Shown here: one piece after another, positions 13,971 through 36,057 of the stretch
Layout of the letters: every line of letters starts with the position of its first letter
Position numbering within the stretch: position 1 is the first letter of the stretch
Source of the DNA: Methyloglobulus sp.
Lineage (GTDB): Bacteria > Pseudomonadota > Gammaproteobacteria > Methylococcales > Methylomonadaceae
NCBI GenBank assembly: GCA_013141505.1
Contig: JABFQX010000006.1
Span: 153,300-217,299 of the forward strand
Length of the DNA stretch: 64,000 nucleotides
Direction: 5' to 3'
Made by a program: the position numbers and the translations under genes
Notes under the pieces: model-generated
What the model was told of the DNA's origin: nothing
Seen by the model: only the letters and a program-made list of their open reading frames with translations
Databases searched by the model: none

Positions 13971-14687
13971 CTAGCCTTTTACCTTTCTTTCCAATTCTTC
14001 ACGGCTAAGGTGACGCACATCTTCGCCCTTAATCATATAAACCAGGTGTTCACAAATATTGCAGGCGTGATCGCCGATCCGTTCTAGTGAACGGACAGTC
14101 CATAGCACATTCAGTGTACGGGTAATATTTCTGGGATCTTCCATCATATAGGTAATCTGTTGCCTGATAATGCTAGCGTATTCTCGATCAACATTGTCAT
14201 CCTTACCGGTTATTTCCGGCACACGTTCGATGTTCATCCGGGCAAACGCATCCAGGGCATCATGGAGCATGGCCTTGACCAAATCAGCCATATGCCGGAT
14301 CTCATGATAGGAGTCATTTTTATTGCCTTCAATGTCTGATCGGTGAATAGCCATTTTGGCTATATGTTCCGCCAGATCACCGACCCTTTCCAGTTCATTG
14401 ATTATCTTAAGGATGGCAATCAGCAGCCTTAAATCGAATGCCGTCGGTTGACGTAGCGCCATAATCTGGGTGCACTCCTTGTCTAGTGCCATTTCCAGGT
14501 CATCAATCTGGTTATCCTGTTTGATAACCTGCTCCGCCAGCTCAACATCAGAGCTTACAAAGGCCCTGATCGCTAATTCTATTTGTTCTTCAACCAAACC
14601 GCCCATAGTCAATACATGGTTACGAACGTCTTCAAGTTCCCTATTGAATTGCCCCGATATATGATGCCCGATGTTGGTATTTTCCAT
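13971..14687 (-). CDS. phoU: Phosphate signalling complex protein PhoU
   Basis: HHISGQFNRELEDVRNHVLTMGGLVEEQI; downstream of pstB. Confidence 0.97.
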   Translation of the reverse strand: MENTNIGHHISGQFNRELEDVRNHVLTMGGLVEEQIELAIRAFVSSDVELAEQVIKQDNQIDDLEMALDKECTQIMALRQPTAFDLRLLIAILKIINELERVGDLAEHIAKMAIHRSDIEGNKNDSYHEIRHMADLVKAMLHDALDAFARMNIERVPEITGKDDNVDREYASIIRQQITYMMEDPRNITRTLNVLWTVRSLERIGDHACNICEHLVYMIKGEDVRHLSREELERKVKG

Positions 14688-14700
14688 TGTCTTCTCCTGA

Positions 14701-15534
14701 TTAGCCGTACCGACCAGTGATGTAATCTTCGGTCTGCTTCTTTTTGGGATTAGTGAATAATTGGTTGGTATTACCTATTTCAATCAATTCACCCATATAC
14801 ATGAAAGCAGTATAGTCGGAAACGCGAGCAGCTTGCTGCATATTGTGCGTGACGATAACGATGGTGTATTTTTCTTTCAATTCGTTAATCAGCTCTTCAA
14901 TTTTGAGCGTAGAAATAGGATCCAGCGCAGACGCAGGCTCATCCAACAACAACACTTCCGGCTCGATAGCGATTGCCCTGGCGATCACCAGTCGTTGTTG
15001 TTGGCCACCCGACAATCCTAAGGCATTATCATTAAGCCTGTCTTTAACCTCATCCCAAAGTGCAGCACCTTTCAAAGCCTCTTCAACCGTTTCATCGAGG
15101 GTGCGTTTGTCATTGATGCCTTGTATGCGTAGGCCGTAAGCGACATTTTCAAAAATGGATTTGGGGAAAGGGTTGGGTTTTTGGAATACCATGCCCACAC
15201 GCCGACGCAATGCTGCGACATTAACCGACTTATCGTAGATATTTTCATTATCCAGCAGGATCTTGCCGTCTATTCGTGCGCTATCTACCAGATCGTTCAT
15301 GCGGTTAATACAGCGCAACAAAGTCGATTTCCCACAGCCGCTCGGGCCAATGTAGGCAGTAACCCGCTGCTTGAGTATATCCATGCTGATATTGTGCAAG
15401 GCTTGTTTTTGCCCGTAATGTAAATTCAGGTTTTCCACCTTGATACAGATTTCATTCTGCCCTGAATTTTTATCGCGGCCACGCAAAATTGAATTCATAT
15501 CAATCGCATGGGTACGTACGTGTTCTGTCGCCAT
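14701..15534 (-). CDS. pstB: Phosphate ABC transporter ATP-binding protein
   Basis: [50 protein letters not shown]. Confidence 0.98.
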
Positions 15535-15537
15535 TTT

Positions 15538-17193
15538 TTATCCTTCCAATGCCCGATATTTTTCCCGCAGATTGTTTCTGATCACAATCGCCGTCAAATT
15601 AAGGCCAATAATCACCAAAACCAGCAGTAATGCCGTTGCATACACCAATGGTCGGGCCGCTTCGACATTGGGGCTTTGAAAACCAACGTCATAAATGTGG
15701 AAACCCAGGTGCATAAATTTTCTGTCCAAATGGATGAACGGGACATTGCCATCCAGCGGCAATGTCGGTGCCAGCTTGACCACGCCCACCAACATCAGCG
15801 GTGCCACTTCCCCCGCCGCCCTGGCGACCGCCAGGATCAGTCCTGTCATAATGGCGGGACTCGCCATCGGTAAAACCGTATTCCACAGGGTTTCAAACTT
15901 GGTGGCACCCAATGCCAAGCTGCCTTCACGTATTGATTTAGGAATACGCGACAAACCTTCTTCGGTTGCCACAATGACGACTGGTAAAGTCAGTAATGCA
16001 AGCGTGATGGATGCCCATAACAATCCTGGGGTTCCAAAAACGGGTGCAGGGGCAGATTCTGGATAAAACAGGCGGTCAATATGGCCACCCAGGATATAGA
16101 CAAAAAAGCCCAGGCCAAACACGCCATAGACGACCGAAGGAACCCCGGCTAGATTATTGACGGCTATCCTTATTAAGCGCGTGGTAAAACCTTGCTGGGC
16201 ATATTCCCGCAGATAAACCGCCGCTATAACGCCAAACGGCGTAACAATGACCGACATGATCAACACCATCATGATCGTGCCGAAGATAGCCGGAAAAATA
16301 CCGCCTTCGGTATTGGCCTCGCGCGGGTCTTCCGCCAAAAATTCGGCAAATTTTTTGCCGTAATGCCCCATTTTTTCGAATAGGTTCATTTTATTCGGTT
16401 GATAAATCCTGACGACTTTAGCCAACGGAATTTCAATTTCAGCAGCACCATCTGTTTTTGCGACTAAACTGCCGCCCCTGATTTTTTGATATAAAGCCCT
16501 TAACTGAGTCTGGTATTGTTCGTAGTCTTTCTTAAGCTGAGTTTTTTCGGCTTCTATAACTGATTTGGCCGTTTCATCCAGCTTATTTTTTAATTCCAGG
16601 CTTTTCTGTTTCAGCCTTAACTGCTCCAACCGGTAATTAATCGCGCCAACTTCTTTTTTTTCCAGATGGTTAATTTCGCCATAAATGGACAAGGCCTCAT
16701 CAATTTTGGTTTGCGCGACAGGCCATGCTTGCCCGCCGCTGGCTATCATTGCCCCGTTCTCTTTCACGGCAACAAGCTGACCGTAAAAATTACCCCACTC
16801 CCGACGCTCTATTACCATAATGTCTTCTGGAAGCGATTGTTGCTGGATATTACGTGCCTGTAACCAGCGAAAATCAGCGCCGGTTACATCACGATTACCG
16901 GTTTTGATTTGATATTGAAGCAGCACATCCTCATCATCGGCCATTTTAAAGCCCGACATTTTGGCGATGGCGGCGGGGGTATCACTGCTGTCTATTATTT
17001 CACCAAAAATCGTTTTGGCTTGCCCACCTTCCTCCTGATAACTGAACCGGACAACCTCCGTCGGCCAAAAATGTCCAATACCACGAACCAGGATCAATCC
17101 CAGTACGCCAATTATCATAATGAGACAGGCACTGACAGCTGCGGCATTCAGCCATATCCACGGCGAGCCAGTTTTAAACCATTTCGCGATCAT
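15538..17193 (-). CDS. pstA: Phosphate ABC transporter permease (long form)
   Basis: C-terminal permease: AVYLREYAQQGFTTRLIRIAVNNLAGVPSVVYGVFGLGFFVY; 551 aa with a large insertion after TM1. Confidence 0.95.
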   Translation of the reverse strand: MIAKWFKTGSPWIWLNAAAVSACLIMIIGVLGLILVRGIGHFWPTEVVRFSYQEEGGQAKTIFGEIIDSSDTPAAIAKMSGFKMADDEDVLLQYQIKTGNRDVTGADFRWLQARNIQQQSLPEDIMVIERREWGNFYGQLVAVKENGAMIASGGQAWPVAQTKIDEALSIYGEINHLEKKEVGAINYRLEQLRLKQKSLELKNKLDETAKSVIEAEKTQLKKDYEQYQTQLRALYQKIRGGSLVAKTDGAAEIEIPLAKVVRIYQPNKMNLFEKMGHYGKKFAEFLAEDPREANTEGGIFPAIFGTIMMVLIMSVIVTPFGVIAAVYLREYAQQGFTTRLIRIAVNNLAGVPSVVYGVFGLGFFVYILGGHIDRLFYPESAPAPVFGTPGLLWASITLALLTLPVVIVATEEGLSRIPKSIREGSLALGATKFETLWNTVLPMASPAIMTGLILAVARAAGEVAPLMLVGVVKLAPTLPLDGNVPFIHLDRKFMHLGFHIYDVGFQSPNVEAARPLVYATALLLVLVIIGLNLTAIVIRNNLREKYRALEG

Positions 17194-19466
17194 AATGAGC
17201 TATATTTTTCCCGTAAGCGTTGGCGAATAACTTCTGCCAAGGTGTTAACTACAAAGGTAAATAAGAACAGCACCAGTGCCGTCAAAAATAATACCCGGTA
17301 ATGGGTGCTATCGACTTCAGATTCTGGCATTTCGACTGCCACATTGGCCGCCAGTGTGCGTAAGCCCTGGAACACGCTAAAATCCATGACCGGGGTGTTT
17401 CCGGTCGCCATCAAGACAATCATGGTTTCACCGACGGCACGCCCCAGACCAATCATCACCGCTGAAAAAATGCCCGGACTGGCGGTCAATAACACCACTT
17501 TGGTCATGGTTTGCCAAGTCGTCGCTCCCAGTGCCAAAGAGCCTACCGTCAAATGTTTAGGAACGCTGAATATGGCATCTTCGGCAATCGAAAAAATCGT
17601 CGGAATCACGGCAAATCCCATTGCGATACCCACAATAAGGGCATTACGCTGATCGTAACCTATACCTAATTCACGATTAAACCAATCGCGCATTGACCCG
17701 CTGAATAAGAAACTTTCCAAAGCAGGGCTGATAGCGAACGTAAACCAAGCAACACAAATAATAAAAGGAATTAATACAATAGCTTCCCAACCTTCGGGGA
17801 CTTTTTGTTGGTATTTTTTAGGCAGGTATTGCCAAAATAAAGCAAACAGCATGACGGAAACAGGCAACAAGAATAGCGACAAAAATAGTCCCGCCAAATT
17901 TTTTTCAACAAATGGCGCCAACCAAAGACCGGCTAAAAATCCCAATATGACCGTTGGCAATGCCCCCATCAGTTCAATAGCCGGCTTTACTATCTGGCGC
18001 ATCGGCGGTGCCATAAAATAGGCCGTATAAATGGCACCCATCAAAGCCAATGGCAAAGCAAATGACATGGCATAAAATGCGGCTTTTAAGGTACCAAACA
18101 CTAAAGGCGTTAGGCTATATTTAGGCTCAAAATCATTGCTGGCGGATGAAGATTGCCAGATGTAGTCAGGTTTCGGGTAGCTTTCGTACCAGACTTTTTG
18201 CCAGAGTGATTTGAACGAAACCTCAGGGTGTTCATTTTCTATATTCCAGGCATGGAGTTTTCCGTCACCGGTTTCCAGCAAAAACCGGTTTGCCCGGGGC
18301 GATATCAAGGCGGCTACCGGTGTCGCAGCACCGACCTGCTGCTTGATAAGCTCCCGTTCGGCGGTAGAGTGATGAAGACTGACATTTCCCCCAGCATCGA
18401 CCACCAAAAAACCTTTGCGGCGTTGCTCGGCTTTAATGGCGACGATGGCCTGTGTCGATATATTAAATGACCTTATTTTTTTGAACGATAATTGGTTAAG
18501 CTCGTTTTTGGCTTGCGTCCACTGCGATACACGACCGGCAGAGTCACCAATCAATAAGGACAGGTCGCCATTCAGGAAAGCCATGCTGGTGATGGTTTGT
18601 CCCGCCTCAACTACTTTTTGCTCATGCTTGAGTTTGGGACTGCTCTTATCGCTGATGTCATAAGCACTTAACAGACCTTCGTTATTCAGCAAATAAAGTT
18701 CACGACCTTCTTTATCAATTAACAGTTCAGCGATTCCATCAGCCGTCACATCTAAGGTAACGGCTGTACGGTTTGTGGTCGCTTCATCGGCAAACAAGGC
18801 TTGTTCTTTAGCAAAATTCACCAGATGAATTTTATTGCCCGATTTTGCGGCGATAGTCGTCGAGTCGGGTTCTACCCTGACCGCAAGTTTCTCCAGAGCA
18901 GCGCCAGAATCGTCGATGACCAAGGCTTGCTCACCCAGAGGATAAGCGACGGACGGGGTAATTTGGCGGCTATTGTTGGGGTAAGTGACTTTGTATTGAT
19001 GCTTGAGAATAATAACTTTGCCATCGGATAAGCCATAAGCAACCGCACCCTGATTAATCGGGCTACCTTGGGCAAAGCTGCTAATCCGAACCCCATCGGG
19101 AACATTTATTTTTTGGTTTAACAGCAGCTTACCTGAGGCTAGCGCAAAAAAATTGATGTTGCCACTATCCGTAAACCGAACTGCAACCTCATTTTGTTCT
19201 TCTGCTTCCAGCAACAATGTCTTACCCGCGTTTTTTTCGGGAAGGTCGTATTCGGCTATTGGACTGGCCTTTGCCGATTCAAATAAGGGCAATACCACGT
19301 ACAACAGGTAAAAGAAAATCAGCACGATAGCGACAATGACCCCAAGCCCACCGACGACCACGCTGTATCGTGCCAGACTATCTTTCATTAATCGCCATTG
19401 TTGATAGCGTTTGCTGGGAACTGATTTTGCTGGTGAAGAGATTGAATTAGCGGTTTGCTCAGACAT
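17190..19466 (-). CDS. pstC: Phosphate ABC transporter permease (long form)
   Basis: ELMGALPTVILGFLAGLWLAP...SLALGATTWQTMTKVVLLTASPGIFSAVMIGLGRAVGETMIVLMATGN; 758 aa; overlaps pstA by 4 nt. Confidence 0.95.
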   Translation of the reverse strand: MSEQTANSISSPAKSVPSKRYQQWRLMKDSLARYSVVVGGLGVIVAIVLIFFYLLYVVLPLFESAKASPIAEYDLPEKNAGKTLLLEAEEQNEVAVRFTDSGNINFFALASGKLLLNQKINVPDGVRISSFAQGSPINQGAVAYGLSDGKVIILKHQYKVTYPNNSRQITPSVAYPLGEQALVIDDSGAALEKLAVRVEPDSTTIAAKSGNKIHLVNFAKEQALFADEATTNRTAVTLDVTADGIAELLIDKEGRELYLLNNEGLLSAYDISDKSSPKLKHEQKVVEAGQTITSMAFLNGDLSLLIGDSAGRVSQWTQAKNELNQLSFKKIRSFNISTQAIVAIKAEQRRKGFLVVDAGGNVSLHHSTAERELIKQQVGAATPVAALISPRANRFLLETGDGKLHAWNIENEHPEVSFKSLWQKVWYESYPKPDYIWQSSSASNDFEPKYSLTPLVFGTLKAAFYAMSFALPLALMGAIYTAYFMAPPMRQIVKPAIELMGALPTVILGFLAGLWLAPFVEKNLAGLFLSLFLLPVSVMLFALFWQYLPKKYQQKVPEGWEAIVLIPFIICVAWFTFAISPALESFLFSGSMRDWFNRELGIGYDQRNALIVGIAMGFAVIPTIFSIAEDAIFSVPKHLTVGSLALGATTWQTMTKVVLLTASPGIFSAVMIGLGRAVGETMIVLMATGNTPVMDFSVFQGLRTLAANVAVEMPESEVDSTHYRVLFLTALVLFLFTFVVNTLAEVIRQRLREKYSSL

Positions 19467-19627
19467 AAGTCTATTCTAAGGTCGGTAAATGACGGGTAGA
19501 TGAAAGTATTGCGAATATCGTAATATCAAAACATTAAATGCACTCTATCATTTTAACCGTATGGTTACATATAACGTATGAAAAAAGCGCCATTTTATGG
19601 CGTATTAACTGCTGACCGAAACATTAT

Positions 19628-19661
19628 AAAAAAAGCCAAGCCCTATCAAACAGGACTTGGC
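19628..19661 (-). terminator. Terminator/attenuator between pstS and pstC
   Basis: Minus-strand hairpin GCCAAGTCCT...AGGGCTTGGC followed by TTTTTTT. Confidence 0.7.
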
Positions 19662-19774
19662 CTATGTCATTTTCAACCTTATTGATCTAGGTCAAGGAGG
19701 TTAAGTCAGACGAAGCATCCTTGCCCAACAGTTTCCAAGACAACATCTTATTTCATCAGCGACAAATAAATTTT

Positions 19775-20758
19775 CTACTTGATCGCTGATAACGCTTTTT
19801 CAACTATCTTTGCCGGCAAAGGTATATAACCGTCTTTGATGACCGATTGCTGCCCAGTTTTTGACAAGACCATTTTAATAAATTCATTTTCCAAAGGCGC
19901 TAACGGCTGATTTGGCTTTTTGTTGACATAAACAAACAGGTATCGCGTCAAAGGATAACTGCCATTCAGGGCATTTTCAGGTGTCGCTTCAACAAAGCTG
20001 GTACTGCCTTTCTTAGCCAAAGGCACCAACCTTACGCCTGATGTCGAATAACCCATGCCTGAATAACCGATACCGTTAACCGATTCGGTGACTGATTGAA
20101 CGACTGAAGCCGAACCCGGTTGTTCATTGACATTGCTTTTGAAATCGCCCTTGCATAAGGCGTGTTCTTTAAAATATCCATAGGTGCCTGATACAGAATT
20201 ACGTCCATATAACTGGACACTTTTTGCGCCCCAGACAGCCACACCGGCATCTCCCCAGGTTTCAATGCTGGCAGCACCGCCGCATTTGTTGGTCGATGAA
20301 AAAATGCTGTCCACTTGTTCCATCGTTAAGCCTTTTACGGGGTTGTCTTTGTTGACAAAAACCGCCAACGCGTCCACTGCAACAGGGATTGCGGTTGGCT
20401 TATAGCCGTGCTTACCTTCAAAAGCCTCCAATTCGTCATCTTTCATTTCCCGGCTCATCGGCCCCAGATTAGAGGTTCCTTCGGTCAAGGCTGGCGGCGC
20501 GGTTGAAGAACCTGCGGCCTGAATTTGAATATTGACGTTGGGATAAACACGGTTAAAGTCTTCTGCCCACAGCGTCATCAAATTAGCCAGCGTGTCGGAA
20601 CCCACGCTTGATAAATTACCGGAGATGCCACTAGCTGCTTGGTACTCAGGGATGCCTGCGTCAACAGTCGGCGCAGCGTGGGCATTGCCCGTTAATCCTG
20701 CAGATATCAGGCTGATTGCTACAGCACCGGTGATTTTCGTTTTCAAAATTGATTTCAT
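19775..20758 (-). CDS. pstS: Phosphate ABC transporter substrate-binding protein
   Basis: [60 protein letters not shown]; signal peptide. Confidence 0.97.
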
Positions 20759-20866: not shown

Positions 20867-21388
20867 TTAGCCTGCATCTTCTTCAAGCAAGGCTTTCGGG
20901 TTTGTTATAGCCAGCAGTTTCGCACAACCTTGAGGTAATTTCGACCAATCATCCGGCAAGCCTAGACGCACAAATCCAGCCGTTGGCAATAACTTGTCAA
21001 CTTCCGGCAAGCCAGCGGGATCAACCAAGTAGGCCAAGAGATCTTCGAACTCCGGGTTATGACCTACCATTAACACACGACCGAGCTCAGCGGGACATTC
21101 AGCCAATACTGATTTCACGCGTACGATGCCTTCATCGTATAACCGCTTTTCCTGTTGAATATCATGGCGGTCTTTGTCAATTGCGTCTGACACTATTTTG
21201 GCAGTCAATAGTGCGCGTGTTGCGGGCGAACTGATAATCACATCGGGGATAAGGCCATTCGTTTGCATCCACTCGCCAATACGCCTAGCATCACGCTTGC
21301 CACGTTTTTTTAGCTTTCGGTCATAATCCTCGGTTACTTCAAAACGCTCAGCCTTGCCATGCCTTAGCAACCATAACTCTTTACCCAT
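20867..21388 (-). CDS. sixA: Phosphohistidine phosphatase SixA
   Basis: ELWLLRHGKAERFEVTEDYDRKLKKRGKRDARRIGEWM (RHG motif) and VGHNPEFEDLLAYL. Confidence 0.9.
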   Translation of the reverse strand: MGKELWLLRHGKAERFEVTEDYDRKLKKRGKRDARRIGEWMQTNGLIPDVIISSPATRALLTAKIVSDAIDKDRHDIQQEKRLYDEGIVRVKSVLAECPAELGRVLMVGHNPEFEDLLAYLVDPAGLPEVDKLLPTAGFVRLGLPDDWSKLPQGCAKLLAITNPKALLEEDAG

Positions 21389-21592
21389 AGTATCCCTTTG
21401 TAATTACTCTTTATGTTATAAGCCAACCCTTTGTTACTCAAAAGAGGGCTATCCGCTAAAATCACAACAAACCGCAGCCAGATAGCAAATCGAAGGCTTA
21501 ATTTATTAAATATTTCATTGTCATCAAACATTAACACTGGATTGTTACAGTATTATGTACACTACATAAGTTTTTATTAGATTAATATTTAT

Positions 21593-23116
21593 ATGGCAAC
21601 ACATTTCGAATTACCGGCAAATTTAACGGCTGAAGCATTGTTTGCTTCATTAAACGATAAGTATGAAACGCATTTAGTTTCCAATCAATTTTTCCTGAAA
21701 ACTTATTACGACAGCTTTGACTGGCGTTTGTACAAAGCCGATTTGACCTGTGAGTTCAACCGCTCCAAACAATCGTCTTCGTTCACGCTGATTAATCGAA
21801 AAACCAATGAATTGGTGGCGAGCACCATTCTCTTCGATGTCCCGTCATTCAGCAGGCAGTTTAATCCTGGCAAAGTAAGACAAACCCTTGAGCCGATTTT
21901 AGAAATGCGGGCATTGCTGCCTATCTGCACATTGGAAGGGGAAACCTCGCTAATTAATATCGTCAATAAAGACGGCAAAATTGTCTTGAATTTGCTGATT
22001 GACGAATTTGAACTGCTCAACAATCGACTCACCCTACTCCCTGTTAAAGGCTATAACAAAGTCGCCGAACAGATCGTGGAAATGGTTACTAAGGAACTGG
22101 GTCTTAGCGCCGTTGATCGACCTGTATTGCTCGACGCTCTAAAGCTGCAAGGCCGTAAACCGAAGAGCTACTCGTCTAAATTGACTTTCCAGTTAACACC
22201 CGAAATGCCGACTGATGTCGCTTGTAAATCAATTTTCACTCACTTGCTCTCCGCCATTAAGATTAATGAGCAAGGCACCATCGCTGATATCGATAGTGAG
22301 TTTTTGCATGATTTTCGGGTTGCCGTCAGAAGAACCCGAGCTCTATTAAGCCAAGCCAGCCATGTCTTACCAGAAGAGGCGTTAACTCGCTATAAGGATT
22401 TTTTTTCCTGGTTAGGGCAGATCACCGGGGAAACCCGGGATTTAGATGTCTATTTGTTAAATTTTGAGCAATACAAAAAAAAATTACCGGCAGTCATCAG
22501 ACAAAGCATTAATCCATTGCAACATTTTTTACTTGCCAAGCAAAAAAAATCACAAAAGCAACTCGCAAAAAAACTGAACTCCAGCAAATATATGACCACC
22601 CTCGCGGAATGGCAAAAATATCTGCAAGCAATTCCTCACGAAAACCCACCTGAAACAGAAACGCAATCGACAATCAAACACTTTGCCGACCAGCGGATAT
22701 GGAAAACCTATAAACAAATCATAAAAAAGGGTGGGGGCATTGACAAACATTCACCACCAGAAGCCCTGCATAATCTCAGGAAAACCTGCAAAAAACTGCG
22801 TTATTTAATGGAGTTTTTTGCAGGCCTGTATCCAGAGCGGCGCATTGCAACATTAATCAAATACCTGAAAAATCTCCAAGAAGTTTTGGGCAGTTACCAA
22901 GACTACGCCGTGCAACAGCAACAGTTGCAACAATTCAGCGAAGAAATGCAGCGTATCAATACGCCCAATAAAACTTTTTTAGCCATGGGCGTTTTAATCC
23001 AAGATTTTGAAGTTCGCAAAGGTAAAGCGCGTGACCAGTTTTCTTCGGAATTCTCTATTTTTAATAAATCAGAGACCCACTCATCTTTTCATACTTTATT
23101 TGGAGCCGGTAAGTAA
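21593..23116 (+). CDS. CYTH/CHAD domain-containing protein
   Basis: CHAD signature LHDFRVAVRRTRALLSQ, GEIRDLDVYL-like GETRDLDVYL, ALHNLRKTCKKLRYLMEFF; CYTH-like N-terminus. Confidence 0.88.
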   Translation: MATHFELPANLTAEALFASLNDKYETHLVSNQFFLKTYYDSFDWRLYKADLTCEFNRSKQSSSFTLINRKTNELVASTILFDVPSFSRQFNPGKVRQTLEPILEMRALLPICTLEGETSLINIVNKDGKIVLNLLIDEFELLNNRLTLLPVKGYNKVAEQIVEMVTKELGLSAVDRPVLLDALKLQGRKPKSYSSKLTFQLTPEMPTDVACKSIFTHLLSAIKINEQGTIADIDSEFLHDFRVAVRRTRALLSQASHVLPEEALTRYKDFFSWLGQITGETRDLDVYLLNFEQYKKKLPAVIRQSINPLQHFLLAKQKKSQKQLAKKLNSSKYMTTLAEWQKYLQAIPHENPPETETQSTIKHFADQRIWKTYKQIIKKGGGIDKHSPPEALHNLRKTCKKLRYLMEFFAGLYPERRIATLIKYLKNLQEVLGSYQDYAVQQQQLQQFSEEMQRINTPNKTFLAMGVLIQDFEVRKGKARDQFSSEFSIFNKSETHSSFHTLFGAGK

Positions 23117-25553: not shown

Positions 25554-26378
25554 TTATGATTTGCTCGCTACTTGGACAGATATTTCGGCTGAAGCGTAAA
25601 CCGGCAGTGGCTGTATCTGCTCATCCAGCAGCCGAAAACTTTCTTCACGCCAGTGGATGAGGGTCATGTTGCCCTGATAGTCTTCCGCTAGGGCAGTACA
25701 GCTTTCTATCCAATCACCGCAATTGGCGTAGGTTTTACCAAATTCCATCCGAGTTAAGTCGGCATGGTGGATATGCCCACAAATTATGCCGTCAACTTTA
25801 CGTTTTTGCGCTTCCAAACTCAGGATATGCTGATAATTACGCATAAACTGGGTGATATTTTTAACCTTATATTTTAAAAAATCGGCCAACGACCAATATT
25901 TAAAACCGAGCTTTTTACGTAGATGGTTCAGCCAACGGTTGATAACCAGCAAAATCTCATAGGCTTCACCGCCCAGATACAGTAGGTTTTTGTTATGGCA
26001 AACCACGTTGTCGAATTCATCGCCATGCAAAACCAGCAGCCGCTCCCCTCGTGCCGTGGTATGAATGGCATTGAGTTGGATATCGACATTATTGAACGAA
26101 GTGCCGACCAATTTCCGCAGCTGCTCATCATGGTTGCCGGGGATATAAATGACACGGGTGCCGGTCTTGGCTTTACGCAAGATACGCTGGACAATATCGC
26201 CGTGTAAAGGCGGCCAATAAACCCCGCTTTTGAATTTCCATAAATCAATGATGTCGCCGACCAAGTACAGAGTATCAGACTCGGTGTTGTCGATAAAGTC
26301 GCGGAGATATTCCGCCTTGCAACCTTTTGTCCCTAAGTGGGTATCAGAAATCCAGATAGTACGATAACGTAGCTTCAT
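25554..26378 (-). CDS. Calcineurin-like metallophosphoesterase, PlcP/UDP-2,3-diacylglucosamine diphosphatase-like
   Basis: ISDTHLGTKGC, LVGDIIDLWKF, YIPGNHDEQLRK, LHGDEFD, GIICGHIHHADL; YWSLADFLKYKVKN and CGDWIESCTAL resemble PlcP-type phospholipases. Confidence 0.85.
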   Translation of the reverse strand: MKLRYRTIWISDTHLGTKGCKAEYLRDFIDNTESDTLYLVGDIIDLWKFKSGVYWPPLHGDIVQRILRKAKTGTRVIYIPGNHDEQLRKLVGTSFNNVDIQLNAIHTTARGERLLVLHGDEFDNVVCHNKNLLYLGGEAYEILLVINRWLNHLRKKLGFKYWSLADFLKYKVKNITQFMRNYQHILSLEAQKRKVDGIICGHIHHADLTRMEFGKTYANCGDWIESCTALAEDYQGNMTLIHWREESFRLLDEQIQPLPVYASAEISVQVASKS

Positions 26379-26425
26379 GTGTAAGCTCCAATATTTAATA
26401 GCAGAGAACGTAGAACATTTACCGT

Positions 26426-27466
26426 TCAGTGATTAACATGCACGACATCCACAGTATTCCAGACATTTTCAACAAACTCGGCATTCATTTCGGGCATGCC
26501 ATCCTGGAGCCAGTCAACCAGGATTTTCGCCGTATTGGGGAAAGTAATCTTTACAGCATGAGCCGTGTGGAGCCAGCGATCAATAACCTGCGAATCCAGA
26601 TCATGCATGATGTGCCCATAGCCAAGCTGCTGTAATGCTGCCGCATTGGAGATTTGCTCCATTTGCGCGTGCAATGGCTTCGCCAATATCTTTTTGCCCA
26701 TTTGCAGCGACTCACTGGCAAGCTCAAAACCGGCATTGCTGATAACGCCGGCGCAATCCTGCAGGTCTTCCTGGAAACCAAACCTGGACAACGGCTTACA
26801 GACAATATGTGCCATCGCCGATGGTATGACATCCGGGGTGTAAATATGGAATTCAAAAGTATTGAAGGGCAGCAAAAGTGCTATCACTGCCCGGGTATCT
26901 TCAAAAGGCAGATAAACAATGATTTTGTTTTTATTGACGCTGGGCAACTTTTCCTCAACCTCAATAATAGGTGGCAGTATGAGTTGACCAAAATGATGCC
27001 AATGCAAGCCCACGCCAATATCCGCTGGCGCAAAAAACTTCATGACCATATCCGCCAGAGGATCTGAACCTTCTCTAGGTATTTTGTGGTTGAAGGCATA
27101 TTGATGCCCCACACCCAATACACGCACACCCTGACTTTTTGCCGCCCAAGCAGTCACCGGTTCAAAATCACTGACAACCAAGTCGTAATCGGTTAAATCC
27201 AGGGTTTTGACATCCTTGACAAAGGTGATCGGCTTGGCCGTCAGCATCGTTTTAAAGTAACTGACTTGCCCTTTATCGGACGCAAAAGTCAGTCCATGAC
27301 GGACTTGATAGCCATTGAAGATGGTCATGTCGAAATATTTATCGAACTCACGACCGGTAAACTGAAAATCTACCTCAATGCCAGCCTTGTACAGCTCCTT
27401 TGCCATAACCCGGGCTCGGGTGATATGGCCGTTACCGGTTCCTTGCACGCCGTAGAATATACGCAT
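26426..27466 (-). CDS. MJ1255-type glycosyltransferase family protein
   Basis: MRIFYGVQGTGNGHITRARVMAKEL...GFELASESLQMGKKILAKPLHAQMEQISNA; MurG-like fold; translationally coupled to the PAP2 gene. Confidence 0.82.
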   Translation of the reverse strand: MRIFYGVQGTGNGHITRARVMAKELYKAGIEVDFQFTGREFDKYFDMTIFNGYQVRHGLTFASDKGQVSYFKTMLTAKPITFVKDVKTLDLTDYDLVVSDFEPVTAWAAKSQGVRVLGVGHQYAFNHKIPREGSDPLADMVMKFFAPADIGVGLHWHHFGQLILPPIIEVEEKLPSVNKNKIIVYLPFEDTRAVIALLLPFNTFEFHIYTPDVIPSAMAHIVCKPLSRFGFQEDLQDCAGVISNAGFELASESLQMGKKILAKPLHAQMEQISNAAALQQLGYGHIMHDLDSQVIDRWLHTAHAVKITFPNTAKILVDWLQDGMPEMNAEFVENVWNTVDVVHVNH

Positions 27467-27987
27467 TAAATATGCTGTCCTATGCTAAACAATGCTATTG
27501 AAATGCCCATCGCGCCGCCGACAAGAATATCAGTGGGGAAATGCACGCCCAGAACCACACGCGAAAACCCGATCAGGCCTGCACAGCAATACAGCGGTAT
27601 CAATAGCAAGGGAAAATAATGACCCAACAAAGTCGCCACCATAAATGATGCCGATGTGTGCCCTGATGGAAAGCTAAATTTATCTGAGGGGGTGATGAAA
27701 CTATGGAAACCCTTTATCGCCGCCGCCGGACGATTACGCCTGAGACTGTTTTTCAGGACAAAATAGCTCGGCCTTTCGATGCAGAATGCCACCAGCATGG
27801 CTTGTAAAGGCGGGTATTGTAAGCCTTCAAACCAGACCATCAAGAACATGGCAACAACATACAATTCGCCATCGCCGATTTTGGTCACGTAGCGGCAGGC
27901 TTTACGCAGGTTATTGTGGACACCCGCATTAATAACCCAAGAAAACACAAATACATCGTATTTCTGGATGGTATTGAGTAATTTCAT
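27466..27987 (-). CDS. PAP2-superfamily phosphatase
   Basis: KNSLRRNRPAAA, FPSGHTSASFMVATLLG, SRVVLGVHFPTDILVGG tripartite PAP2 motif. Confidence 0.9.
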   Translation of the reverse strand: MKLLNTIQKYDVFVFSWVINAGVHNNLRKACRYVTKIGDGELYVVAMFLMVWFEGLQYPPLQAMLVAFCIERPSYFVLKNSLRRNRPAAAIKGFHSFITPSDKFSFPSGHTSASFMVATLLGHYFPLLLIPLYCCAGLIGFSRVVLGVHFPTDILVGGAMGISIALFSIGQHI

Positions 27988-28087
27988 CTTATCCCTCCTG
28001 ATTACAGTGGAATAATTGGCCAGCCCGGTATTAGTGACCAGACATTCACCAACAATTCATTTACAGGGGAAAGATTAAGATTTTTTT

Positions 28088-28127
28088 ATGACATCACCGT
28101 GACCGTTTGTTTAAGGTTTGGTGACAG
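28088..28127 (-). promoter_or_regulatory. Candidate Pho-box array upstream of the PAP2-glycosyltransferase-phosphoesterase operon
   Basis: Half-sites (plus strand) ATGACAT at 28088, GTGACCG at 28099, weak TTTAAGG at 28110, GTGACAG at 28121; all spaced by 11 bp; about 100 bp upstream of the PAP2 start. Confidence 0.6.
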
Positions 28128-30116: not shown

Positions 30117-30830
30117 TCATTTAAGGCTTGGCTTGATGGGCAGATACAATTGATTGGCAACAAATGTGATGCCTGTCCCGGCGAGTTCCTGGACTTTTTT
30201 GTTGTGGCCCGCAGCGATGATTACCTTACCGTTTGCGAAACCGCTCCATATCGTCTGCAAAACCGCATCAGTGGCTTTAACTGATGTTAGGTCAAGGCCT
30301 GAAATGACGCGGAACGTATCACTATTCAACACGTACTGGTTATAGGAAAAACAAGGGCTGGTAATGCAGGCTCGGCCATTGCTTTCCAAGCCGACAAACT
30401 GGCCTGCCCCTAGGTGCGAAGTCACCGGCCTGAACGCTGATTTCAGTTCAAATCGGCCAAAATTAGCGAAATTGCTAAAAAGCAGCGGCCTAACAACGCC
30501 CCGCAATAAGGCGGCATGGGATAAGTCAATGGCATTGGGGTTATTGACGGTGCCGATATAACATTCGGGTTGCAAACGCCCATCTGGACAACGGGTAAGG
30601 TTGCGGTTGACCGACTTGACGAAAATGCCGCCGCACATGGGCGACGCACATTTACGCATATCTTCACGGAAGGTGTAATAACCATATTGTTCAAAATTAC
30701 CCAGTGGCGTTAACACAACAGGATCGACAGGGAGCACCACATTGCCAGCATACGCATTGGCGACTAAACCATTTATGGAAACACTAAAAAATAACAATAA
30801 CAAAAAACCTAAAGGATTACGGATGTTCAT
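30117..30830 (-). CDS. Exported hypothetical protein, cysteine-containing
   Basis: 237 aa with signal peptide; EDMRKCASPMCGGIFVKSVNRNLTRCPDGRLQPECYIG. Confidence 0.7.
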   Translation of the reverse strand: MNIRNPLGFLLLLFFSVSINGLVANAYAGNVVLPVDPVVLTPLGNFEQYGYYTFREDMRKCASPMCGGIFVKSVNRNLTRCPDGRLQPECYIGTVNNPNAIDLSHAALLRGVVRPLLFSNFANFGRFELKSAFRPVTSHLGAGQFVGLESNGRACITSPCFSYNQYVLNSDTFRVISGLDLTSVKATDAVLQTIWSGFANGKVIIAAGHNKKVQELAGTGITFVANQLYLPIKPSLK

Positions 30831-30993
30831 AAGTTAAGTCCTCAGTAATTAAAGGCGATACACGCAAAGGAAAGAAAGCAGGAAATAAGCAAGCTCTCCA
30901 GGCCGCACTTCATAATTTGCCCAGCAATTAAAGCGAAAGCAGCTTTGCCATTACAGGGTGTTATGAATGTTGGCCTGGAGCAGACAACTTGCC

Positions 30994-31464
30994 CTATTTA
31001 GGGCACGGCGCAAATTCGCATCTTGGCCCGGTACGGCCTACGTAGGAGCCATTCGGGCATTGTTTTACTTCCATGGTACACATGATTTGATCATCGGGCG
31101 GGTAAGGCTTATAGTCTGTGCAGGTTGCAATCCAGCGGACATTATAAAAACTGGTCAGAGGATTTGCCTTGATGGCTTTTAACTGTTTTACAAATGCGCC
31201 AAACTGTTTGGTATATGGCGAGGCTTGTACACAACCGGTAAAACCGCCTTCAATGGGTCTTGCAAACTCATTGACGATAAATTTATCGACGATGCCCTGC
31301 CCCACACCAAAGCCGATCGCTTGCCGAACCGTTTGCAAGGCGGCTTGATCAACACCGGGGCCAATGCCGCCGATGCTGATTTCAACAGCACGGTTCGCCG
31401 CCATTGATACACTCGACACTAACATCAGCAGTGAACATAGCAAATAAAAACAAGATTTTTTCAT
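30994..31464 (-). CDS. Exported hypothetical protein with C-terminal C-x(3-4)-G-x-R-x-G-P-x-C motif
   Basis: Signal peptide MKKSCFYLLCSLLMLVSSVSMAA; C-terminus VKQCPNGSYVGRTGPRCEFAPCPK. Confidence 0.7.
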   Translation of the reverse strand: MKKSCFYLLCSLLMLVSSVSMAANRAVEISIGGIGPGVDQAALQTVRQAIGFGVGQGIVDKFIVNEFARPIEGGFTGCVQASPYTKQFGAFVKQLKAIKANPLTSFYNVRWIATCTDYKPYPPDDQIMCTMEVKQCPNGSYVGRTGPRCEFAPCPK

Positions 31465-31497
31465 TTCATTCTCCAATGGATTGAGCTACGAAAAGAC

Positions 31498-31575
31498 AAC
31501 TGCCAATACAATAGAAGGTAACGACTTATCACTTTGTCACAGCGTTATAGACAGCCCTTCATTGTATTGGCAGTT
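31498..31575. repeat. 78-bp long inverted-repeat (hairpin) element
   Basis: AACTGCCAATACAAT (31498-31512) and ATTGTATTGGCAGTT (31561-31575) are exact reverse complements; pairing continues with GAAGG/CCTTC and TAACG/CGTTA. Confidence 0.75.
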
Positions 31576-31773
31576 TAATTAAGCGTTAACGGTTAGGGTT
31601 GCAGAAAGTTAAAAACGCCTACAAAAACCGATTAACCGGATACAGGGTACACCATCAGTAGTGAATGAAATGTTAACGGTGAAGCTCACCGGCAAAATTG
31701 AGTATCCTAGATGACATCTAGCGGAACCCAGGATTTCGTGCTGTCTATTTCCTGTGTTCCGCAGTTTGCCATA

Positions 31774-31803
31774 TGGGCATCTTGCCCAGTCCGTTGCGTT
31801 TAA
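31774..31803. repeat. Dispersed hairpin repeat, copy 2
   Basis: TGGGCATCTTGCCCAGTCCGTTGCGTTTAA; see copy at 29971. Confidence 0.65.
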
Positions 31804-32147
31804 GGGTGGCTAAAACATGGGTCGCGGGTAAATACCTAGTCACTTAAGTAAGCCACGAGCGTGAAGAAGCGTCCACCTACCAACTCCAATATTGATTCGG
31901 CCTTTTAATGTTTGAACCCAAGGTGCATTTAACGGCTAAAAAATAAGTTGCTCATTTTCACGGAGCGAACACTCCCTTTATTATTCCCGTTATTTAGATT
32001 TTTCATAATTTATCCCCTAACTACTCTTGCCAGTCCATTTAATCAATCAGGCTTGAAATACAATTTTTCAAGTAGGTTTATTCGCTTAATCCAGTAAGGA
32101 ACAATCAACCGCCAACAGTTATACCACCCAAGCCATGTAAAATTATT

Positions 32148-34508
32148 TCAACAGCTAGACTTGTTTTGTACTCGCAACCACCAGCCTTCATGCGTACCTT
32201 GATACGGATCAATACCTTGCCAACACTCAAATAACCACTGACCGAAGCGCACACACGACGGCAAACCAGTGTCGTCACGCTCAATCACATCGTACTGACA
32301 TTGCGCGAAATACATATGGCCTACCGATTGATGCACGTCGTAAGCCCAATGGGGACGTTTTTCATCAATCAATTCATACCACGGGCAAGAATAAGCAGTT
32401 GGCGGAGGACTTGGTAAAGGCTCTTTTCCAGAACGTAACCGCCAGAATAGCCTGCTCTTCGCGATGTCTATATCACTTGGTAACCAACTGCCCTTGTAGT
32501 AACGCGTTTGTCTGGCAGTTTGAATCCATTTTGTCATCGCTATACAGATAAACAAATCTCGCTCTGTCAAAATTATAATCGGCGGGTTGTAGCCAAAGAA
32601 TTCCTCCAGATATTCTAAAAGGCGTTCTTCATCTGAAAGCATCCGTTGAAACAGTTTACTCTTGGCGATTTGTTTTCTAGTTGGCAACCAATCTTCGCCG
32701 CAACGCTTCCGTAAAACCTCAATCCATTCAACGAGTACGACACAAATTAACCTATCGCGACTAGTCAATATCGGTGGGCCGTGGTCTGCGTAACCTCGCC
32801 CTTCCACTGAATTACCGATTTCTTCATCATTTGGCTTGAATACCTTGGCCAATTTACTGTGCTTATTGCTATAGAAGACATAAATCAACAAGCCGATAAG
32901 CAGCCATAATGCAAACAACTTCCACTTTTCCAACTCAATACCGGTCAATAAATAACAACATGACAACAAGCCTAATACCGGAATCAAGGAAAAATTCTTG
33001 ATATATGACGCGACATTTAAGCCAACTAACACACTAAAAAAAACCAGTAATTGAATGTCGATATTATTGTTAACCCAATTTTTTAGATAATTACCCAACA
33101 AATCCGGCTTGGCATAGACGATGGTATTTAAAGCAGTTAACGTTATGAGCGGCAAGATATACTTGGCATTGACGTAAGGTAGACGGAAGTGTTTGCCGTC
33201 ATTGCGTGGAACTTTACCGTATTGCTGTGTAGGCAAAGTTAAAACGCCCGCACAAACCAAGATGAAGGCGAATAAGGTACCGATGCTGGTCAAATCCAGG
33301 ACGAATTTTTCATCAGTAAATAGCAACAATAGTGTGACCACGCCGCCGGTCAACACCGTTGAAAATCCCGGTGTTTTATAATTAGGGTGGAGTGCGCCGA
33401 ATTTAGCGGGTAACAAGCCATCATTGCTCATCGCCATCCATATTCTGGGTTGCCCCATTTGGAACACCAGCAATACACTGGTCATTGCCACGACTGCCGC
33501 GACCGAAATAAACAACGCTATCCATTTAACCCCTCTGAGTTGAAATGCTTCGGCGACAGGGTCATTAACGCCCAGATACTGATACGACACCACCCCGGTC
33601 AGCACCAAAGCCAACACAATATAAAGTACAGTACAAATGATCAGTGAATAAATCATCCCCCTAGGCAAATCCCGTTGCGGATTTTTGCATTCTCCGGCCA
33701 GCGTGGAAACCGCATCAAAGCCGATATAGGCAAAAAATACTGCCGACACACCGCCCATCACCCCGCTAAAACCGTTGGGCATAAACGGTGTCCAGTTATC
33801 GATATCAATGTAAAAAATACCCACCGCTATCACCAATACCACGACAAGCAATTTCAATATCACCAGGAAGTTGCTTATATTTTTAGCTTCCTTTACGCCT
33901 CTGTACACTAAAGTGGTGATGACTAAATTGGCGGTAATGGCAGGTGAATCCATAATAAACCTCAAATTTCCCAATTGTGGCGCAGTTTCCCATGCTAACT
34001 TACCTTCGCTTTTTAGCTGGGCTATCGCTTGCGCGTGAGCAGACGTGTAATTTATGGTTAACCACGCGGGTAAATGCCAACCCGCACTGTCCAGCAGATT
34101 GGTGAAATAGCCGCTCCAGGAAAACGCAACAAATACATTACTGACTGAATATTCAGTCAACAACGCCCAGCCGATAATCCAGGCGAAAAACTCCCCAAAC
34201 GCCACGTAAGCGTAGGTATAAGCGCTGCCTGAAACCGGCACCTGTACGGCAAATTCGGCATAACACATCGCGGTAAAACCACAGGCCACCGCGCAAAATA
34301 GATACAGGAACACCACGCCCGGCCCACCGCTAAAACAGGCATTACCAATGGCGCTGAAAATACCGCTGCCGATGATGGCGGCAATGCCGAATAGCGTCAG
34401 GTCACGCACTGATAATATCTGGTGCATATCGCCATTGTTGCCGCCATTTTGTTGTAAATCGTGCAGAGATTTTTTGCGGAATAAATAATTAATACTCATG
34501 GCTGCCAA
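32148..34508 (-). CDS. APC-superfamily amino acid permease with duplicated C-terminal extension
   Basis: LTLFGIAAIIGSGIFSAIGNA...GECKNPQRDLPRGMI; long cytosolic C-terminus with two copies of a RDxxIC-x(4)-WI-x(10-12)-WLP-x(4)-IAKSxLFxR motif. Confidence 0.9.
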   Translation of the reverse strand: MAAMSINYLFRKKSLHDLQQNGGNNGDMHQILSVRDLTLFGIAAIIGSGIFSAIGNACFSGGPGVVFLYLFCAVACGFTAMCYAEFAVQVPVSGSAYTYAYVAFGEFFAWIIGWALLTEYSVSNVFVAFSWSGYFTNLLDSAGWHLPAWLTINYTSAHAQAIAQLKSEGKLAWETAPQLGNLRFIMDSPAITANLVITTLVYRGVKEAKNISNFLVILKLLVVVLVIAVGIFYIDIDNWTPFMPNGFSGVMGGVSAVFFAYIGFDAVSTLAGECKNPQRDLPRGMIYSLIICTVLYIVLALVLTGVVSYQYLGVNDPVAEAFQLRGVKWIALFISVAAVVAMTSVLLVFQMGQPRIWMAMSNDGLLPAKFGALHPNYKTPGFSTVLTGGVVTLLLLFTDEKFVLDLTSIGTLFAFILVCAGVLTLPTQQYGKVPRNDGKHFRLPYVNAKYILPLITLTALNTIVYAKPDLLGNYLKNWVNNNIDIQLLVFFSVLVGLNVASYIKNFSLIPVLGLLSCCYLLTGIELEKWKLFALWLLIGLLIYVFYSNKHSKLAKVFKPNDEEIGNSVEGRGYADHGPPILTSRDRLICVVLVEWIEVLRKRCGEDWLPTRKQIAKSKLFQRMLSDEERLLEYLEEFFGYNPPIIILTERDLFICIAMTKWIQTARQTRYYKGSWLPSDIDIAKSRLFWRLRSGKEPLPSPPPTAYSCPWYELIDEKRPHWAYDVHQSVGHMYFAQCQYDVIERDDTGLPSCVRFGQWLFECWQGIDPYQGTHEGWWLRVQNKSSC

Positions 34509-34576
34509 TAAGACCGATTAGTGATATGCCGAAGCCCATAAAAAACTCCGGCATATTTTTAAGTGCTCTTTTTATC

Positions 34577-35239
34577 TTAAAGCTTTGGAAAGTATTTCCA
34601 TTGCTGCTGCAGATACCCGCTGCGCGGCCATTGCATCAAGCGGATACCATCCACTTTAACGCCATGTGCGGTCGCAACAGTCATGCACATCGTACTGTAA
34701 ACATTGCAATACCGGTAATAACCGCCCCCTGTCGATTCCCTAGTCCATAAGGTATCGTTATGTGCCGGATTACAACTGCCAACAAAAAGACTGGAACTAG
34801 GCTGACGGTCTCTAACCCGGATACAGAGATTTTTCTCATAGTTGCGTAGCTGGAGCGTACCTGGCGTTTTAACTACGTGTTCCCAATACTGGGTGGACAT
34901 GTTAAAACAAGTCGATTGATATACCGGATCATACATAATAATGGCATTCCAGTATGGCGTGTCCGCACACTTTCCGGAAGCTCTGTTCACCAACCAGCCG
35001 ACGGTAGAACGCGGCTCAGCCGATACACTCGCGGAAATTGCAAACATTCCCACGACGAGACCCCCGATTAATACACCACGAGTAGCGAATAGGGATTTCC
35101 CTATTTTTTTCATTTGCTTTTGCTGCGTTTTCATATCGATTACCCCGGATTCACTTATTGGAAAGCCTTTAGCCGCCAGAGCTGCTTCTAAGCTATTAAT
35201 GCTTATTTTGTCAACATCGTTGCAATGTAGGATACTCAT
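34577..35239 (-). CDS. Exported protein, possibly ricin-type beta-trefoil-like
   Basis: Hydrophobic segment GVLIGGLVVGMFAISASVSAE; WLVNRASGKCADT...LQLRNYEKNLCIRVRD...LMQWPRSGYLQQQWKYFP resembles QxW-type repeats; an internal start at 35134 is possible. Confidence 0.55.
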   Translation of the reverse strand: MSILHCNDVDKISINSLEAALAAKGFPISESGVIDMKTQQKQMKKIGKSLFATRGVLIGGLVVGMFAISASVSAEPRSTVGWLVNRASGKCADTPYWNAIIMYDPVYQSTCFNMSTQYWEHVVKTPGTLQLRNYEKNLCIRVRDRQPSSSLFVGSCNPAHNDTLWTRESTGGGYYRYCNVYSTMCMTVATAHGVKVDGIRLMQWPRSGYLQQQWKYFPKL

Positions 35240-35516
35240 TCAATTCCTACGATTGGGCTAATTAACAATCTAAACTGGGGGATTTTGGCAGGCAATACAT
35301 ATTCCTCTACCTTAGGATTCCAATCTCTATTGTGATTACCCGGAAGGTCGAGCTCCTTCCTCATAAGTATCCATAGCTGTCTGTCCTAGCGTACATCTAC
35401 GAGCGATTAAGCTGCTATGAGATAACTACCCCAAATGATGAGGATTGGCGGATGCTCTTGGAGCATCCGCCAATCAATCAAGTTTAATTAACGCAAGAGG
35501 CTTGCCTGATTGTAAA

Positions 35517-35927
35517 TCAATAACAGGTCTGTATGCCAAGCGGTAGGTTTGTCTTTGTATTTAGGAAATGGTCGGGCATGTAGCCATACCACAATGTGCC
35601 GTGCATTTTAACAACCGCACCATCCCAAATTCTTGATCCTGCAATGGGATAACCCTTGGTATTTTGGCAAAGAATACATACAAAATCCCCTTGGGGCACA
35701 GTAATGCGCCCTAGATGCTTAATACCGGTCGCATTGTTTGTCACATCATATGCCCCACGTATGTTATGCGCTGTATCAGTGCGAAAATCAAGCCCCGTCT
35801 TGGTATGTATTACGGCAGCTGGAATTCCGGCTGTACAAATCGAGCCTGCATGTACAAACTGTGAAACGCTTGTAACAGCCAATAATGCCATTGCATAAAT
35901 TAAAGATGTTAAGGTAAGTTTTTTCAT
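35517..35927 (-). CDS. Exported hypothetical protein
   Basis: Signal peptide MKKLTLTSLIYAMALLAVTSVSQFVHAG; CILCQ motif. Confidence 0.6.
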   Translation of the reverse strand: MKKLTLTSLIYAMALLAVTSVSQFVHAGSICTAGIPAAVIHTKTGLDFRTDTAHNIRGAYDVTNNATGIKHLGRITVPQGDFVCILCQNTKGYPIAGSRIWDGAVVKMHGTLWYGYMPDHFLNTKTNLPLGIQTCY

Positions 35928-36057
35928 TTTCTTTCTCCACATAGTTAGAAAATATCCACAGCGGAATGCTGTGGATGAATCAAGAATATCATAGAGTAAA
36001 AAATTGTAACTGTTTGATATATAATATATATTACTATTAGTCGCTATGGGTTACTGG

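Follow-up and report, generated by a model that had tools for sequence, protein, structure and literature searches.

The 64,000-nt stretch of DNA analysed here (the window) carries three minus-strand genes that probably form, at a rough probability of 0.72, a PhoB-controlled operon for membrane lipid remodelling, in which diacylglycerol (DAG) from a PlcP-type phospholipase C and a PAP2-family phosphatase would be glycosylated by a glycosyltransferase (GT) other than Agt. The window falls on a single contig of a 3.87 Mb genome (100% complete), and the host is a type Ia methanotroph of the Methylomonadaceae, near Methyloglobulus. The features of the operon are as follows:

28088..28127, minus strand: Pho box of four 7-bp PhoB half-sites at an 11-bp phase, located with a half-site model trained on pstS promoters
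28072..28078, minus strand: -10-like TTAATCT, by resemblance to the consensus only
27994..27999, minus strand: Shine-Dalgarno-like AGGAGG for PAP2, read directly in the sequence
27466..27987, minus strand: PAP2-family membrane phosphatase, 173 aa (PF01569; motifs intact)
26426..27466, minus strand: MJ1255/VC2487-type GT, 346 aa (TIGR00661 over cut-off; GT-B fold predicted)
25554..26378, minus strand: PlcP-type phospholipase C (metallophosphoesterase), 274 aa (Metallophos; tree; GNHDE motif)

We propose that, under low phosphate, PhoB would bind the four-unit Pho box and PAP2, GT and plcP would be transcribed as one message. PlcP would cut head groups off existing phospholipids to give DAG, the PAP2 protein would convert phosphatidate (or related lipid phosphates) to DAG and so steer new lipid away from phospholipid, and the GT-B glycosyltransferase would transfer a sugar from a nucleotide sugar to DAG, giving a phosphorus-free glycolipid. 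This swap of phospholipid for glycolipid would free phosphate for the cell.

An earlier sequence-only reading of this DNA had described three tightly packed genes, and ORF calling placed PAP2, GT and the phosphoesterase on the minus strand at the same coordinates. As it had stated, the PAP2 stop overlaps the GT start (TAATG, 27468-27464), and 47 bp (26425-26379) separate GT from the phosphoesterase gene. No terminator was found between the three genes (the two weak matches, a count below the mean of shuffles, are both within coding sequence), and no internal promoter in the operon rose above shuffles. The search for a Pho box of its own before the window plcP was also negative (p about 0.8), and stand-alone plcP relatives (L040-L045, where L numbers denote loci) do have their own Pho boxes. 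Among the loci compared, the order PAP2-GT-plcP, with plcP last, occurs only in the window genome (G000 in our genome labels). Nearly all members of the family have the PAP2-GT pair, so the gene arrangement is not due to chance.

The reading had also noted a nearby pst-phoU locus, which lies about 5 kb from the operon and outside it. NCBIfam models identify pstS and pstC; the other three genes are assigned by reading of translated ORFs only:

13971..20758, minus strand: pst-phoU locus
20845-20828: Pho box of pstS
20758-19775, minus strand: pstS
19466-17190, minus strand: pstC
13971-17193, minus strand: pstA, pstB and phoU

Genes for a SixA-like phosphatase and a CHAD-domain (polyphosphate-binding) protein lie between pst and the operon (20867-23116), and a CHAD-SixA pair also adjoins GT in locus L154. 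Past NAD synthetase lies a cluster of genes for small secreted-looking proteins without an assigned function (30117-35942), one of which (34577-35239) resembles a ricin-type lectin fold by eye.

The low-phosphate link, which had been drawn from the proximity of pst, is now backed by a conserved four-unit Pho box and by a PhoB encoded in the genome (337 bits against a cut-off of 296). The box reads CTGTCAC caaa CCTTAAA caaa CGGTCAC ggtg ATGTCAT (28127-28088), and the -10-like TTAATCT follows its last half-site after 9 bp, a spacing shared with the family's pstS promoters. When E. coli sites served as the model, the window site ranked only 15th in the window. For this reason the model was retrained within the family, and the four-unit layout then came out: an 18-base model, seeded with the E. 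coli sites and then refined on family pstS promoters only, was split into half-sites, and four half-sites at an 11-base phase were scored. The window box scored above 98% of 213 control upstream regions. As this first control set included probable true Pho genes (olsB-like ORFs in L057, L058 and L062), scoring was redone with 232 cleaner controls, all of which the window box exceeds; none of 5000 shuffles reached its score. Its half-site score of 14.4 is slightly under the family median of 15.3. A 39-base pattern drawn from the sites has one match in the window (0.03 expected), and at zero mismatches one match in the whole genome; two further genome matches, each with two mismatches, have no obvious lipid gene downstream.

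The same layout recurs in relatives, although the loci are related by descent and the counts below are not independent. In the first set, all 27 PAP2 upstream regions exceeded the 95% control level. So did the four phased units at every named locus with PAP2-GT (67 of 67). Where PAP2 is missing, as in 13 named loci, GT itself follows the box directly, or plcP does if the operon is plcP-GT. Measured against the cleaned controls, 86 of 89 distinct promoters lie above the 99% level, and 60 of the 89 exceed all 232. Two of the three exceptions are artefacts, in which the region before the GT start was scored because PAP2 was truncated or had diverged too far to pass the filter; the third (G020), a GT without PAP2, truly lacks a Pho box. 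Letters between and inside the units vary across promoters, and the phase and core are kept. The phased CTGTCAT-type half-sites, their conservation in relatives and the genomic PhoB strongly support a predicted PhoB-controlled operon, one that would respond to phosphate at the level of transcription. Two records deserve mention. The GT promoter box of L119, from a MAG named Methylomagnum ishizawai, is identical to that of G003, which belongs to the same genus as the window genome, so the name of the L119 record is probably wrong. In another MAG of the same genus (G002, L026) the GT gene is broken by internal stops while the Pho box is kept, which may be an assembly error.

The GT had been described as MJ1255-like and of a different type from Agt, and both statements held. 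It scores 215.8 bits against the TIGR00661 cut-off of 195.9, which places it in the MJ1255/VC2487 family, and its only Pfam domain is PF13528, compared with PF13439/PF00534 in an Agt-like protein. BLASTP against P. aeruginosa Agt gave no significant alignment, so that neither sequence similarity nor GT4 domains connect the window GT with Agt. No Agt ortholog was found anywhere in the window genome, where the best match (3e-10) is to generic GT4 proteins. Roughly half of the related genomes in the family encode an Agt-like GT as well, and the MJ1255-type GT is therefore not simply a replacement for Agt everywhere. Its closest relatives in named genomes are from Methyloglobulus sp. (79%), followed by Methylobacter, Methylovulum and Methylomonas, all type Ia methanotrophs.

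An AlphaFold (AF2) model of the GT (pLDDT 77, pTM 0.75) matched, in Foldseek, GT-B enzymes of the GT1 type and MurG, and its sequence profile matched no solved structure. The model suggests that the protein is likely a nucleotide-sugar-dependent GT-B enzyme; since the matches are generic, the acceptor cannot be read from the structure. Nor does the family name reveal it, since the family is broad and the only published trace that we found is a ChIP binding peak of the chitin regulator ChiS upstream of the member VC2487 in Vibrio cholerae (PMC11856585), a search with PF13528 returning nothing useful. DAG as the acceptor is thus a prediction from the gene partners.

The addition of a PAP2 phosphatase, also noted earlier, is borne out by PF01569 (75 bits against a cut-off of 27.2) and by the three catalytic motifs K-x6-RP, PSGH and SR-x5-H-x3-D, which are intact and kept in 14 aligned members, placing the protein in the superfamily. 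The closest solved structure is the lipid A phosphatase LpxE (6ebu, E 3e-21 with a profile), so phosphatidate is not the sole possible substrate. No NCBIfam equivalog model passed its cut-off on this protein, the closest being undecaprenyl-diphosphatase. Type-2 phosphatidate phosphatases are active at the periplasmic face of the membrane. With the PAP2 site usually periplasmic and the soluble GT cytosolic, PAP2-made DAG would need to flip. In four loci without PAP2 (L151, L184, L185 and L187), the gene that diverges from the Pho-boxed GT encodes a VTT-domain (DedA/TVP38-like) membrane protein, an assignment checked in Pfam for L185 only; such a protein could move lipids between leaflets.

The neighbourhoods of PAP2-GT are those of lipid remodelling, in many arrangements. 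Of the 80 named loci, 67 have PAP2 as the gene immediately before GT, within 17 bases of the GT start, and the adjacency extends beyond the family in five more loci (L205-L208 and L212). The end of plcP adjoins the GT start, without PAP2, in two Methylobacter MAGs (L131 and L152), and a gammaproteobacterium from a different family also has plcP just before GT (L210). Elsewhere plcP lies upstream of PAP2-GT (L168 of Methylotuvimicrobium buryatense 5GB1C, L178, L179 and L193); it diverges from GT in L180 and converges on it in L165, L173 and L186. G017, which has the same promoter sequence as L168, is without Agt. That PAP2 and PlcP exchange as the gene before GT is the strongest hint that both would feed the same acceptor, and the pairs PlcP-GT and PAP2-GT, alternative or combined across relatives, favour the earlier suggestion of two DAG suppliers.

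Other lipid genes recur beside these. In G014, an 8 kb stretch (L235, contig 156, 1819-8163) carries a Pho box, plcP and olsF, and then a second Pho box, PAP2, GT, a second plcP and an LplT-like MFS gene; this second plcP is possibly broken by one TGA. In G012, plcP2, olsF, GT and a PF04185 phospholipase C adjoin, and olsF also neighbours operon-type genes in G009 as in G014. The Pho-boxed PAP2-GT of G016 (L238, contig 5, 2604-8729) stands beside an Agt-like gene, followed by UDP-glucose 6-dehydrogenase (ugd), which would supply UDP-GlcA; the locus also includes a PhoU-domain gene, and a strong Pho box precedes the Agt-like gene (L116). In G023, PAP2-GT adjoins pstS-pstC. The window genome itself encodes an OlsF-type ornithine lipid synthase (G000:C27 58886-59188; L203 1054-2934; PF19576 and PF13444), so a second route to a phosphate-free lipid exists there. 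Box and neighbourhoods together strongly support a phospholipid-to-glycolipid system under predicted Pho control, with DAG coming from PlcP and/or PAP2.

What this system requires of the phosphoesterase bears on an alternative in which that protein would be a lipid A enzyme of the LpxH type, encoded in an operon for ordinary envelope housekeeping; automatic annotation does name such proteins UDP-2,3-diacylglucosamine diphosphatase. The tree of PlcP versus LpxH that the sequence-only reading had called for, built from 36 proteins, separates the two at a support of 100/100, across a very long internal branch, with the window protein in the PlcP part. The genome's own LpxH, encoded elsewhere (269 bits against a cut-off of 190), falls in the LpxH part and shares 23% identity with the window protein; its locus also encodes a protein with, by eye, a PQQ methanol dehydrogenase-like start. 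The window protein is 49% identical over 245 residues to a P. aeruginosa PlcP encoded 5' of an Agt-type GT, a plasmid-borne copy that we took as the PA3219 homolog. LpxH models score far under their cut-offs on it (37.4 against 134 and 32.3 against 190.4). In the alignment its metal ligand motifs are DTH, GDIID, GNHDE, HGDEFD and GHIHH, with GNHD where LpxH has GNRD. At the sequence level the LpxH assignment is rejected by tree, motif, scores and the separate true LpxH, to which the Pho box adds, and the housekeeping explanation is hardly credible. The protein is, by clade, GNHD ligands and the Pho box of its operon, PlcP-type, with a predicted phospholipase C activity giving DAG. Two kinds of PlcP occur among type Ia methanotrophs: the window kind (G000, G004, G009, G013, G014, G017, G023 and G024) and a second kind of about 45% identity in most other genomes of the group. 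In L053-L065 the second kind is often followed by an LplT-like MFS gene for a putative lysolipid transporter, and in some of these loci it is divergent from an OlsB-like acyltransferase gene with its own Pho box.

The same regulon might instead act on another acceptor, with an LpxE-like or undecaprenyl-diphosphate PAP2 saving phosphate from lipid A or carriers, the GT glycosylating that lipid or an envelope precursor, and PlcP as a co-regulated passenger. The best solved PAP2 relative (LpxE), the sub-threshold undecaprenyl-diphosphatase model and the fold match to MurG, which glycosylates a lipid-linked precursor, would all suit it, and, with PAP2 missing from 13 of the 80 loci, the GT need not depend on PAP2 for its acceptor. 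Yet in the arrangements without PAP2 the direct partner of GT is plcP, and PlcP is known to produce DAG; GT also repeatedly lies near olsF, phospholipase C and agt-ugd. Sugars are usually added to lipid A in the periplasm, by GT-C enzymes, which the soluble GT-B of the operon does not resemble. We regard this alternative as unlikely. Still less probable is a chance joining of unrelated Pho genes, in which PlcP would make DAG for other phosphorus-free lipids or recycling, and PAP2-GT would be an independent phosphate-regulated pair. It would account for plcP flanking GT in no more than 13 of 80 named loci and lying elsewhere in most relatives, and for a GT-plcP order that turned up only in the window species; OlsF in the genome could be added, although ornithine lipid synthesis requires no DAG. 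Against it, plcP and GT are neighbours in at least five arrangements in separate lineages, which is unlikely by chance in genomes of about 4 Mb, and no Agt was found in the window genome to consume the PlcP product. A remodelling operon with DAG as the common intermediate is accordingly the reading that we prefer.

The sequence-only reading had referred to PlcP-Agt as a system of alphaproteobacteria. That the system is established stands (PMC4796936, PMC8528852), but it is not confined to that class: it has been shown in P. aeruginosa (PMC8528852) and, among methanotrophs, in Methylosinus, and plcP was reported in all proteobacterial methanotrophs (PMC9239053). Type Ia methanotrophs have no agt beside plcP, and the GT that would finish the lipid swap there was left open (Scanlan et al. 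2022, PMC9239053). The same study reported another putative DAG GT, compared with Bacillus YpfP, in Crenothrix and Methylobacter tundripaludum, which may or may not be the MJ1255-type GT; its main text does not mention PAP2. When we looked for this GT, which the study mentions next to plcP, beside the second type of plcP, the neighbours were lplT-like MFS and olsB-like genes instead.

Remodelling by PlcP is thus known; what the locus adds is a specific candidate pair, PAP2 and MJ1255-type GT, that may fill the glycosyltransferase gap in type Ia methanotrophs, with a Pho box conserved in almost every type Ia genome examined. We lean towards the broader view that MJ1255-type GTs may constitute a second, evolutionarily unrelated DAG GT for phosphate-starvation remodelling, coupled to PAP2 (tapping de novo phosphatidate) and PlcP, and that type Ia methanotrophs without Agt, the tractable M. 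buryatense among them, may make glycolipid mainly or solely by this route. The question is testable by a single gene deletion in existing laboratory strains. With a positive answer, some members of a GT family that has only locus numbers for a name would gain their first assigned function, and methanotroph phosphate stress in lakes and soils would have a better marker than plcP alone.

Several known systems resemble the proposed one in part. Ornithine lipid synthesis by OlsF or OlsBA also yields a phosphate-free replacement lipid, but this is an aminolipid, made without DAG or sugar. In chloroplasts and cyanobacteria, DAG from a phosphatidate phosphatase of the PAP2 type goes to MGDG synthase, a GT-B enzyme that makes galactolipid or glucolipid. 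That GT belongs to another family, and the pair is not known to be clustered with PlcP or to lie under a PhoB box. The plcP loci previously described in type Ia methanotrophs (PMC9239053) share with the window the bacterial group, the presence of plcP and the lack of an adjoining agt. The closest parallel in layout is PlcP-Agt of Sinorhizobium, marine Roseobacter/SAR11, P. aeruginosa (PA3219-PA3218) and Methylosinus trichosporium, which has the PlcP ortholog, an adjoining GT gene and a Pho box upstream, and which converts DAG to glycolipid at low phosphate (PMC4796936, PMC8528852, PMC9239053), as would be expected of the window operon. It differs in its GT, since Agt is a GT4 enzyme to which the window GT, of the MJ1255/VC2487 type, shows no detectable similarity, and in the PAP2 phosphatase, which is the usual operon partner of the latter.
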